20,598 nucleotides of DNA from a virus. The stretch covers positions 1-20,598 of IMG/VR virus record IMGVR_UViG_3300042467_000797; one strand, 5' to 3'. The notes under the pieces are model-generated. The model saw only the letters and a list, made by a program, of their open reading frames with translations, was not told where the DNA came from and did no database searches. The position numbers were made by a program, and so were the translations under genes. Below, piece by piece: positions 1 to 20,429 of the stretch. The number at the start of each line of letters is the position of its first letter. The first letter of the stretch is position 1.

Positions 1-1204
1 CGATGGTGCCGAAATATGCAATCGGCGAATCAAGCGTAACCGTAGCCGACGTATTCAGCCCCGTGTTCTCGACGACAGCCGTGTCTTGAGCAAGCGGGAA
101 GTTGTCGGTTGATGCTGCACCACCAGATGATGCTGCCCAGTTGTTAGCAGACCAGTTACCGCCCGCAGCAGTGACCCAATAAACAGATTTAGGCGTAGAC
201 GCAGTAATTCCTCTGATACCCCTAAGATCCCCGATCCTAGTGCCGCTAATCGGTGCAGCAGTGCCGATAACGTAGATGTCTCGAAAATCTGCGTCTGTCA
301 GACTCGGAGTAGCGTTGACGGTGAGAGTTTGAGCGATGCCCGGATTGACACCACGGAACCAGACACGGCGGTTGCCTGCGGTGCCGGTTGTGGAAAGGGT
401 GCCGTTGATGGTTTGGCGGGCTTGAAACGTAACTTGACGAATACCAGCAGTGTTTGGAGCGGTAATGCTTAAATTATTAAATGTATTAATTGCTTCAAAC
501 GAATGAGTCCCAACAGGTGTTGCTGTAAAAGAAACATTATAAAATGTCACGCCTTGTGAAGTTGCGGGACCGCCTGTAAATGTTGCGCCAGTCGATGAAC
601 ATACTATTGTAGATGTTCCAGCATTAAAAGTTAAGTTTGTATTTGTTGCAAAATTAATTGGCGAGGCACCACTCAACGTCACCGTAGACGATCCAAGATT
701 TATCGTGCGGGTGTTGCTGTTGCTGGAGGATAGTTGAGTTGCAGTGACGTTGAAGTTGTTGGTGGTGAAGGTTCCTTGGGTAAGGGTAAGCGCAGTTGTA
801 ACTGTTAGCGCATCGCTCAAAGACAATGTTGTGCCTAAAGTTGTAATTTGAACAAGTGATGAAAGAGTTTTTCCGTTGCTGGTTAAAGTCTGCGTTACGC
901 CGCCTGTAAACTGAAGCGTTCCGGTATGCGTCCATGTCATTCCGGTTGCAACAACAACATTACCAAAAGTGTTTACCGGAGAAGTTCCTGCAAATGTTCC
1001 AGTAAAACCTGTGAATGTAAGGTTCTTGCAATTTGCCGCCGCTGAAACAGTACAAGTTACCGCACCAGAAGCGCCATCAAAGAACACATCATCCGCACTA
1101 GTAGGCACAGCCGCGCCACCAGCACCGCCAGACGTAGTTGCCCACTTGGTACCGGCAGTACCATCCCAGTTGGCAGTTCCACCGACCCAAAAACGATCTG
1201 CGAT
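1..1204 (-). CDS. Large beta-rich tail fibre / tail structural protein, 3' end beyond the window
   Basis: The minus strand is open from the HNH stop to the left edge, giving 401 residues in this window. Residues 4-43 (RFWVGGTANWD, then a Ser/Gly-rich stretch ending in PTSADDVFFD) match a module I recognise at the N-terminus of phage fibre proteins. Residues 342-381 (VYWV, GGNWSANNW, DTAVVEN) look like a second, diverged copy. Between them lie Thr/Ser/Asn-rich alternating strands that suggest a beta-helix or stacked beta sandwich. No ATG, GTG or TTG lies between the upstream in-frame stop and the conserved module. I place the start at an ATC (1202-1204), 7 bases after an AAGGAG, because it would yield the typical M-ADRFWVGG start. 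Bases 481-660 are AT-rich (66 G/C of 180). Role in host recognition is inferred from the family and position. Confidence 0.8.
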   Translation of the reverse strand, partial: MADRFWVGGTANWDGTAGTKWATTSGGAGGAAVPTSADDVFFDGASGAVTCTVSAAANCKNLTFTGFTGTFAGTSPVNTFGNVVVATGMTWTHTGTLQFTGGVTQTLTSNGKTLSSLVQITTLGTTLSLSDALTVTTALTLTQGTFTTNNFNVTATQLSSSNSNTRTINLGSSTVTLSGASPINFATNTNLTFNAGTSTIVCSSTGATFTGGPATSQGVTFYNVSFTATPVGTHSFEAINTFNNLSITAPNTAGIRQVTFQARQTINGTLSTTGTAGNRRVWFRGVNPGIAQTLTVNATPSLTDADFRDIYVIGTAAPISGTRIGDLRGIRGITASTPKSVYWVTAAGGNWSANNWAASSGGAASTDNFPLAQDTAVVENTGLNTSATVTLDSPIAYFGTI

Positions 1205-1205
1205 T

Positions 1206-1733
1206 TTAGCTCTCCTTAAATCTCAGTGCCTTGGGGCCATGTGTATCTAACTTTACATGGCAAGGCCGACAAACAGTTCTTCCATTATCTACGTCATACC
1301 GTAGATCAGGAAACGCGCACCACGGTTTAATATGATCTGCTTCTAAATAGCCACCTTGGATGCTACAAAGCTGACAGGTCCAATTATCTCTTGCAAATAC
1401 AGCGTTTCGCCAGTCTCTATACGGGTACTGCGCCATCGCTGTTTTACGCTCTGATCTTAAACCACCGCGCCAATTTGGATGCTCTGGGCCATAACGATAG
1501 TTTTGTCTTTGAAATTCTGAGAGCTTTTTACGGGTCTCGTCTGAATGCCTCCGCTTTTCCGGCGGCACTAGGTCAGGATGTCCTGTCGTAAATAAACCTT
1601 TCAGCTCTCTCCCGGCAAAGAAACACGCCTTGCTGCAAAACTTTTTGCGTCCTTTAGCAGCCCACGGTTGCACATCAAACACCTTAGCGCAATGTTTGCA
1701 GGTTAAGGGCACCCAAGGCTTTGCAGCAGGCAT
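1206..1733 (-). CDS. HNH homing endonuclease with NUMOD3-like segments
   Basis: A 175-residue freestanding homing endonuclease, a selfish nuclease that cuts unoccupied alleles of its insertion site. An N-terminal zinc-finger-like region has Cys12, Cys15, Cys33 and Cys37. Residues 51-75 (GHPDLVPPEK, HSDETRKKLSE) and 82-91 (GPEHPNWRGG) resemble NUMOD3 DNA-binding segments. The HNH core has Cys120/Cys123, His134 in EADHIKP, Asn150 in DVDNGRTVC, and Cys155/Cys158/His159. All key positions appear intact. The ATG at 1733 follows the previous stop by three bases with a weak AAGG site, and the stop is one base from the fibre gene start. No intron is evident, since the flanking genes look separate. 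Confidence 0.9.
   Translation of the reverse strand: MPAAKPWVPLTCKHCAKVFDVQPWAAKGRKKFCSKACFFAGRELKGLFTTGHPDLVPPEKRRHSDETRKKLSEFQRQNYRYGPEHPNWRGGLRSERKTAMAQYPYRDWRNAVFARDNWTCQLCSIQGGYLEADHIKPWCAFPDLRYDVDNGRTVCRPCHVKLDTHGPKALRFKES
1212..1217 (-). promoter_or_regulatory. Ribosome binding site of the fibre gene, inside the HNH gene's last codons
   Basis: AAGGAG on the minus strand lies 7 bases before the ATC codon at 1202-1204. It is formed by the Lys and Glu codons near the end of the HNH gene, whose TAA stop at 1206-1208 falls between this site and the ATC. This fits translational coupling (stop, one base, start) and supports ATC as the intended start position. Confidence 0.6.
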
Positions 1734-1736
1734 TTC

Positions 1737-2006
1737 TTACACCTTGTAGTACCAGATGCCTTCAACTTCTACGAGCTTCGCCCCGGCAGGGGGTACACCC
1801 TCTAGCTTCTGGTACACCTCTCCGGCAATCTCTTTGGTGGTATCCGGCTGCTCAACCGGAGGCGCAGTCACAACAGCAATCCAGTTGTCCCGGCGCTGTT
1901 CCTTCATGGCCTGGATCTCTGCTTCCGTGAACGTGTGATCGTCCGGGAGGTGCAGAGCGTCAGCGAATTTGCCGTGGGGGGTGTCGAATTGAAAGTCGAT
2001 CTTCAT
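1737..2006 (-). CDS. Small conserved phage protein, 89 residues, unknown function
   Basis: The protein starts MKIDFQFDTPHGKFADALHLPDDH, with the conserved-looking segment TFTEAEIQAMKEQRRDNWIAVV. The C-terminal part (residues 60-89) has a short Pro/Gly-containing motif and ends GIWYYKV. I recognise this type of small acidic protein as common beside tail-fibre genes in environmental phages, but no function is established to my knowledge. An AAGGTC lies 7 bases before the ATG. It is flanked on both sides by homing-endonuclease-like genes of different families, so the ancestral order was probably this gene directly before the fibre gene. A fibre chaperone or assembly factor is conceivable from position only. 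Confidence 0.8.
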   Translation of the reverse strand: MKIDFQFDTPHGKFADALHLPDDHTFTEAEIQAMKEQRRDNWIAVVTAPPVEQPDTTKEIAGEVYQKLEGVPPAGAKLVEVEGIWYYKV

Positions 2007-2018
2007 GGTTTTTGACCT

Positions 2019-2636
2019 TTACACGGCAACTTTTGTTGCCAAAAACCTTCGAGCCTTGGGACGAACAATAGCAGAGACAATATCCTCGCCATTGGACATC
2101 CGTTGATGCACCGCAGCTAATGTGATGCCGTAGTGATCGCACCAATCAGACAGGCATTTTGTTTTGCCATTGATTGAAAGAAGGATCGTGTTTCGCTTGT
2201 TTCTCGATTGAATCGCCCTCGAAGTCCAGCGAACATTGCCAGGCTCGTAGTTGCCATCGTTGTTGATTCGATCAAGCGTGTCTTTTGGGCTAGGCGGCTC
2301 TCCGACATCCTGGGCAAAGTTTTCAAACACTAGCCAATGTGGGGCAACAACAATTCCACGACCCCCATAGTTTGGATAGGCCGGATTGTTTGGGTTGCTG
2401 CATCGAGCTTTCATGTTGCACCAAATGTTGTACACCCGACTGTGACGCTTACCGTGGCGACGATTCGAGAATCCAGAACGCGCCAAACAACCACATGATC
2501 TCGTTCTGCCGATCCTGACCGCGCTTGCGAGCTTCACACACTCCTTGCCGCAGTCACACACCAGTCGCCACAACTTCTGACCGTGCTTGTTCGGACCCGC
2601 CTCGTCGATGAACTGCAATTGACCGTAGCGTTGCAT
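2019..2636 (-). CDS. Zinc-ribbon / HNH-like homing endonuclease with C-terminal HTH
   Basis: A 205-residue protein in three parts. A zinc ribbon at residues 22-51 has Cys27, Cys29, Cys48 and Cys50 (LVCDCG and SCGCL). A central nuclease-like domain runs from HSRVYNIWCNMKARC through NYGGRGIVV to LDRINNDGNYEPGNVRW (121-137), a signature common in phage HNH/AP2-type endonucleases. Residues 162-186 (LSDWCDHYGITLAAVHQRM) look like a helix-turn-helix of the intron-encoded nuclease repeat type. A near-consensus AGGAGGT sits 4 bases before the ATG. The 57 bases upstream contain TTGCAT and TAGCAT hexamers about 18 bases apart, a weak promoter candidate. It probably moves by homing; cleavage activity is inferred from the motifs. 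Confidence 0.87.
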   Translation of the reverse strand: MQRYGQLQFIDEAGPNKHGQKLWRLVCDCGKECVKLASAVRIGRTRSCGCLARSGFSNRRHGKRHSRVYNIWCNMKARCSNPNNPAYPNYGGRGIVVAPHWLVFENFAQDVGEPPSPKDTLDRINNDGNYEPGNVRWTSRAIQSRNKRNTILLSINGKTKCLSDWCDHYGITLAAVHQRMSNGEDIVSAIVRPKARRFLATKVAV

Positions 2637-5752: not shown

Positions 5753-6057
5753 TATTTTGCGCGCTTACCTCCCGCCATCATGCCTTTGGACATTTTCTTG
5801 ACAGCGCCGCCCGCCATCATGCCTTTGGACATTTTCTTGACAGCGCCGCCCGCAGCGTAGCCTTTGGACATCATGCCGCCGCCCATCATGCCAATGGGCT
5901 TGCCCATGGCCATGCGCTTGTGCTGATTGACCGCACCACCCGCCGCCATCATGACCGGGCCGGTCTTCTGGCTGGTCTCAGACACCACCTTGTTTTTCGG
6001 ACCACTGCCCACGGCCCCACCGCCACGCGTCGCGCAGCCCATTCCACGTCCAGCCAT
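5752..6057 (-). CDS. Small Gly/Met/Lys-rich repeat protein, 101 residues
   Basis: The N-terminus MAGRGMGCATRGGGAVGSG is a common start for tiny phage proteins near lysis and connector genes. The C-terminus holds two exact 13-residue repeats (AVKKMSKGMMAGG, residues 72-97), preceded by a degenerate copy (MMSKGYAAGG). The composition is basic and low in complexity, with no fold I can name. AAGGGG lies 8 bases before the ATG. Such proteins may bind DNA or be processed in the virion, but that is speculation. Confidence 0.75.
   Translation of the reverse strand: MAGRGMGCATRGGGAVGSGPKNKVVSETSQKTGPVMMAAGGAVNQHKRMAMGKPIGMMGGGMMSKGYAAGGAVKKMSKGMMAGGAVKKMSKGMMAGGKRAK
5771..5848 (-). repeat. Two tandem 39-bp direct repeats inside the 101-residue gene
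   Basis: Units at 5771-5809 and 5810-5848 look identical by eye, each encoding 13 residues (AVKKMSKGMMAGG). A partial, diverged third copy follows from 5849. The in-frame unit length means copy-number changes would keep the reading frame. Confidence 0.9.
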
Positions 6058-20361: not shown

Positions 20362-20429
20362 GGCGCGTGAGCTCCAGGCGCGTGAGCTCCAGGCGCGTGA
20401 GCTCCAGGCGCGTGAGCTCCAGGCGCGTG
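20362..20429. repeat. 15-bp tandem repeat, four copies plus a partial
   Basis: The unit GGCGCGTGAGCTCCA occurs four times exactly at 20362-20421, then GGCGCGTG at 20422-20429. Each unit contains the palindrome GAGCTC. The array runs into a 22-bp palindrome. Unit length is about 1.5 helical turns, so neighbouring copies face opposite sides of DNA. Confidence 0.95.

Follow-up and report, generated by a model that had tools for sequence, protein, structure and literature searches.

A phage fibre-like gene probably started at AUC behind an HNH endonuclease gene

Introduction

AUC is in general a very weak start codon and, to our knowledge, hardly any natural AUC starts have been recorded, a protein almost never being started in this way. 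In the stretch of viral DNA analyzed here (20,598 nucleotides, hereafter the window), a fibre-like gene on the minus strand has ATC where its start codon should stand, preceded by a good Shine-Dalgarno sequence. The original prediction offered a rare AUC start, a start-loss mutation that lowers fibre expression, or an assembly error. The question is which of these accounts for the junction, and how the junction arose.

Results

The start junction of the fibre-like gene

Read on the minus strand, AAGGAG (1217..1212) is followed by the spacer AGCTAAA (1211..1205), ATC (1204..1202) and the codons GCA GAT CGT TTT TGG GTC GGT GGA, which encode ADRFWVGG (Table 1). The AAGGAG, seven bases and ATC-GCA-GAT-CGT described by the original prediction are therefore exact in the sequence, and the family normally begins ATG-GCN-GAY. 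The bases 5' of AAGGAG are GAGATTT, and the fibre frame 5' of the ATC reads TGA GAT TTA AGG AGA GCT AAA, with the stop seven codons upstream. As these seven in-frame codons run from the TGA without any ATG, GTG or TTG, no conventional start is available upstream, and the codon listing confirms the claim that none lies between the in-frame stop and the conserved module. AAGGAG overlaps the end of an HNH endonuclease gene (Lys-Glu-Ser-stop), the TAA of which is the TAA of the spacer. This placement inside the HNH end, together with the apparent insertion of the HNH gene at the start codon, is the main event that the original prediction overlooked.

Table 1. Features of the window and start junctions of related insertions
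Feature	Position	Strand	Remarks
Fibre-like gene from ATC	2..1204	-	401 codons, open to the window edge, where it runs off
ATC, proposed fibre start codon	1202..1204	-	Unchanged in 7/7 haplotypes; ATG/TTG there in sister insertions
TAA, stop of the HNH gene	1206..1208	-	One base 5' of the ATC
AAGGAG, Shine-Dalgarno sequence for the fibre	1212..1217	-	Within the final codons of the HNH gene; invariant in 7/7 haplotypes; 7 nt 5' of the ATC
Free-standing HNH endonuclease gene, 175 aa	1206..1733	-	Pfam HNH; apparently at the original start codon of the fibre
ATG, now the HNH start	1731..1733	-	Site of the fibre ATG in HNH-free relatives (L074, L017 versus L139)
89-aa gene directly upstream	1737..2006	-	Fibre directly next to it in HNH-free relatives
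Second, different HNH-type endonuclease gene	2019..2636	-	PHROG 374 family, E 5.5e-62
39-bp tandem repeat, 2.6 copies	5771..5871		In a small ORF with Met/Gly/Lys-rich repeats (AGGAVKKMSKGMM)
15-bp tandem repeat, 4.5 perfect copies	20362..20429		Upstream of the terminase, near the end of the contig
Type A junction (window)			AAGGAG-AGCTAAA-ATC-GCA-GAT
Type B junction (L145, L146, L147, L150)			GGAG-like site followed by ATG-GAT, which overlaps the HNH stop
Type C junction (L148, L149, L152)			AAGGAG-AATAACC-TTG-AGT-GAT, in base-for-base alignment with type A
Type D junction (L153, L154)			TAA-ATG-GAT
L169-L171 group			CAAA-ATG-GCT-GAC; HNH ends inside the first fibre codons

The fibre-like protein and the phages that carry it

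An AlphaFold2 prediction from 35 aligned sequences yielded a confident all-beta model (pLDDT 92.8). The best viral structure matches were proteins of uncultured phages, one of them named 'Parallel beta-helix repeat', and the uncultured Caudovirales proteins A0A6J5T8W4 and A0A6J7X413 in BFVD are alike in fold, with identities of about 40-46% across the 401 residues of the model. Solved structures gave no confident match to the model, and 'fibre' is a fair working name for this predicted beta-rich protein. A comparison of terminases gives 79% identity with phage DSL-LC04 (from a Chinese lake), the nearest annotated relative, where lectin-like genes occupy the comparable region; the carriers are a freshwater-type phage family.

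Recurrence of the ATC junction

Viral contigs were scanned with the pattern ATH-GCN-GAY-MGN-TWY-TGG-GTN-GGN-GG and ten contigs matched, nine with the identical junction AAGGAGAGCTAAA-ATC-GCA and the tenth, L005, in another context. A junction scan allowing ATN yielded two further contigs, both with ATC, and L144, detected in the HNH search, has AAGGAGAGTTAAA-ATC-GCA. The junction AAGGAGAGYTAAA-ATC-GCA is present in 12 other viral contigs, each under a metagenome identifier of its own, never with ATG, and among the sequences gathered every AAGGAGAGYTAAA-ATN junction beside this fibre or behind this HNH gene is ATC; the matches listed from a broad AARGARAGYTAAAATNGC scan were mostly due to chance. 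Family starts without the ATC junction were ATG in 115, GTG in 4 and TTG in 1 of the 120 matches listed.

Because many of these contigs are fragmentary and several nearly duplicate others, the effective number is seven distinct haplotypes, window included, rather than 13 contigs, and because the haplotypes share one ancestry the argument from conservation rests on one clade. An assembly error at the ATC is refuted by the recurrence of the junction in 12 other, independent contigs. The comparison with related genomes that the original prediction had called for thus came out on the side of a genuine ATC, as all relatives at the AAGGAGAGYTAAA junction keep it and none has ATG.

The divergent match in L005 (6548-6570, plus strand) belongs to a fibre relative without HNH and reads GGGAGG-TGGTT-ATT-ATC-GCT. 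The only in-frame starts nearby are a GTG three codons upstream that overlaps the Shine-Dalgarno sequence, ATT or ATC, and the nearest relatives start with ATG. This may be another AUH start that arose independently, observed a single time.

Selection on the reading frame from codon 2

Across the seven haplotypes, pN/pS over codons 2-38 was 0.147 in the ATC frame versus 2.13 in both other frames, and the variable sites in codons 2-34 were distributed 10/8/27 over codon positions 1/2/3. Of the four-fold sites, only one in fibre codons 2-34 (out of 18) and one in the HNH core (out of 26) were unchanged, whereas the Shine-Dalgarno sequence, the TAA-A and the ATC were all unchanged. The fibre reading frame is intact in L133, with a stop after 1,679 codons, and in G001 the open frame spans 1,987 codons. 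In the window, the first conventional in-frame codon 3' of the ATC is a GTG at codon 33 without a Shine-Dalgarno sequence; the first such codon is also 33 in L009, L010 and L144, 40 in L001 and L003, and 71 in L132. No conventional start is common to all seven haplotypes, and none of the first candidates is preceded by a Shine-Dalgarno sequence.

Sequence marks of an AUH start are found at this locus: no usable in-frame ATG, GTG or TTG, a Shine-Dalgarno sequence correctly spaced to the ATC, conservation of the codon, and protein-level selection after it in the relatives. A rare AUC start is the best supported of the options originally proposed, being common to the junction relatives and followed by purifying selection from codon 2, and it is also favored by the optimal Shine-Dalgarno spacing and by ATG or TTG in sister insertions. 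Start loss in the sense of a recent lesion fails because the ATC state is old and the reading frames are intact.

Two further candidates were tried and rejected. In the window and its close relatives, folding predicts a local hairpin in which the AUC is paired, so that initiation there would need the ribosome to melt it; the hairpin is not predicted in L132 or L144, and a conserved RNA structure at the start was dropped. For a phage-encoded altered initiator tRNA, the window contains no tRNA, and two large related records encode Arg, Thr and Leu tRNAs only.

An HNH gene at the former fibre start

The HNH catalytic domain was assigned through Pfam PF01844 (E 1.9e-7, above the curated cut-off), and the protein matches PHROG HNH endonuclease families. 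In the HNH-free L074, the 89-aa gene is followed by the fibre in the context GGTGTAAGAG-ATG-GCTGAC, and in the HNH-bearing L139 the same flank leads into the HNH gene as GGTGTAAGAG-ATG-CCTGCG. The corresponding flanks into HNH are GAAGGCGTAAGAG-ATG-GAG in L142, GTGTAACC-GTG-GCG in L145 and GAGGAGTAAAA-ATG-AGC in L148. As the 5' flank is shared with and without the HNH gene, the HNH start codon occupies the former fibre start, and occupied and empty fibre starts among related phages make up a presence/absence polymorphism at one site. All HNH relatives of at least 64% identity with their 3' end on the contig adjoin the fibre gene family; more distant HNH proteins lie beside other genes, except for L169-L171, which are next to a fibre. 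Judged from these sequences, the HNH gene, a putative homing endonuclease, appears to have inserted at the fibre start and taken the original ATG, its last codons giving the new Shine-Dalgarno sequence.

INPHARED yielded no cultured phage encoding a protein at least 60% identical to this HNH, and a search of genome contigs for a prophage or host link yielded two weak matches only (36-37% identity). The HNH core occurs with two N-terminal regions, a short one (MPAAKP, L134-L141) and a long zinc-finger-like one (MESVERLCPIC..., L142-L150), which suggests N-terminal exchange within the clade. As the second endonuclease gene of the window lies just upstream of the 89-aa gene, two endonuclease genes bracket the latter.

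Sister junctions and a deletion of the HNH core

At the place equivalent to the ATC, L145, L146 and L150 have ATG, and L148 and L152 have TTG; the TTG-type junctions have the identical AAGGAG to start spacing of 7 nt. Because the sister insertions start there, the ATC position is a start-codon position, and the single base change from ATG to ATC originally proposed fits these junctions. The ATC carriers are monophyletic in the HNH-core tree (support about 0.82-0.92), so that one change to ATC, kept afterwards, is the simplest reading. Within types A-D, no HNH-bearing relative keeps ATG-GCN-GAY at the fibre start, which is kept in L169-L171 with their divergent HNH.

In L010, the HNH core has been lost and a 25-codon in-frame frame (VASVEMPCHVKLDTHGPKALRFKES-stop) precedes the same Shine-Dalgarno sequence and ATC. 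The relic, at about 382-305 on the minus strand, reads VASVEM...KES, and its first residues, VASVE, are similar to the long HNH form found in L142. The ATC is thus kept without a nuclease, as are the UAA and a translated-type leader into the Shine-Dalgarno sequence, and the persistence of a leader running into this site fits termination-reinitiation.

Alternative explanations

It is unlikely that the fibre is not, or almost not, made, with the ATC as a lesion that the HNH gene left on entry and the fibre gene either decaying or superseded by a different receptor-binding protein. AUC is indeed a poor start codon and selfish elements can harm the gene into which they insert, but there is strong purifying selection 3' of the ATC, decay would bring stops and frameshifts into reading frames that are intact for 1,679 codons in one relative and open for 1,987 in another, and the ATC has been kept in seven haplotypes although nearly all synonymous sites have changed. 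A shorter fibre with a conventional start could draw on the GTG codons found at positions 33 and 40 in several haplotypes. As neither GTG is present in all haplotypes (codon 71 being the first conventional one in L132), no candidate follows a Shine-Dalgarno sequence, and protein-level selection acts on codons 2-32, which form the family's most conserved module, we consider such a start very improbable.

Production of the fibre as a C-terminal extension of HNH, through +1 frameshifting or stop readthrough, would agree with the position of the fibre in the +1 frame directly after the HNH end in types A, B and C, and with an AAGGAG before the stop that resembles the Shine-Dalgarno-like element of known +1 sites. 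This is hardly credible, however, given that AGC-UAA has no slippery codon, that the type D fibre lies in frame 0 behind a plain stop and then ATG, that ATG or TTG starts are present at sister junctions, and that HNH-free relatives make the fibre alone. Almost no weight can be given to the idea that the HNH element is an intron whose splicing restores ATG-GCA. The insertion is precisely between the ATG and the second codon, but no match to a group I or II core was obtained from Rfam at gathering score, the HNH reading frame fills the insert, the junction bases are unfit for group I (U before, G at the end) or for group II ends, and the boundaries differ in sister insertions.

Discussion

We consider it likely that the fibre-like gene is translated from AUC with a strong Shine-Dalgarno sequence, aided by ribosomes finishing the HNH frame. 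Initiation at the AUC is strongly supported by the comparative sequence evidence, and translational coupling of the fibre to the HNH frame is what we infer in addition. An HNH endonuclease gene would have entered at the original start codon of the fibre and come to use the former fibre ATG and its 5' flank, leaving the fibre behind the HNH 3' end with AAGGAG 7 nt before the AUC and the UAA one base before it. Ribosomes ending the HNH frame would then terminate on top of the new fibre start site, where post-termination or freshly Shine-Dalgarno-bound 30S subunits could initiate the fibre on the AUC with fMet. Within this HNH clade AUC would have arisen once, at the position of AUG or UUG in the sister clades, and been kept since.

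Known AUH starts provide a precedent for part of this arrangement. The E. coli genes infC and pcnB start with AUU (PMC9410913), and in S. aureus cvfC1 starts with AUU and infC, ccpN and citZ with AUA (PMC13009471). These genes likewise combine an AUH start, in several cases conserved among relatives, with a good Shine-Dalgarno sequence. They differ from the fibre in being cellular, mostly regulatory and started with AUU or AUA, whereas the fibre is a large phage structural-type gene with AUC that adjoins an upstream frame; initiation was measured in the S. aureus cases and is deduced for the fibre AUC. S. aureus reporters with AUU or AUA and a strong Shine-Dalgarno sequence reached about 10% of the output obtained with AUG, and up to 30% in one case (PMC13009471). 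A start-codon survey of 36 genome groups found that non-AUG starts go with stronger Shine-Dalgarno sequences, and among 61,358 ancestral AUG starts reported two switches to CUG, one to AUU and none to AUC (PMC5622118). Given the low output of AUU and AUA starts and the lack of a surveyed switch from AUG to AUC, it is plausible that AUC lowers the fibre yield, and such a weak start sits oddly with a structural-type protein. That AUC is an adaptation rather than tolerated damage, either by fixing fibre output, with the strong Shine-Dalgarno sequence and coupling to the HNH frame, as a fraction of HNH translation or by making the start immune to an HNH recognizing ATGGCNGAY, is a tentative idea that we would sooner doubt than accept. 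The lack of ATG-GCN-GAY at the fibre start in types A-D would agree with the site-protection version, and persistence of the ATC in L010 without the nuclease counts mildly against it.

Free-standing homing endonuclease genes are also known from T4-like phages, mobE in Aeh1 nrdA and mobA in T4 gene 60, and the UAAUGA overlap of nrdA and mobE has been read as translational coupling (PMC2988022). As there, a free-standing endonuclease gene lies in or at an important phage gene and the stop and start signals suggest coupling. Unlike mobE and mobA, the HNH gene appears to sit at the start codon itself and to have taken over the start of the gene, the displaced fibre being given a non-canonical one.

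Gene callers limited to ATG, GTG and TTG would cut about 32-70 residues from the most conserved module of the fibre. The natural series of ATG, GTG, TTG and ATC starts, with HNH, without HNH and with the 25-codon relic, offers a test of whether termination-reinitiation relaxes start-codon choice. In these phages, the junction indicates that a selfish endonuclease can seize the start of a phage gene that seems to be important.
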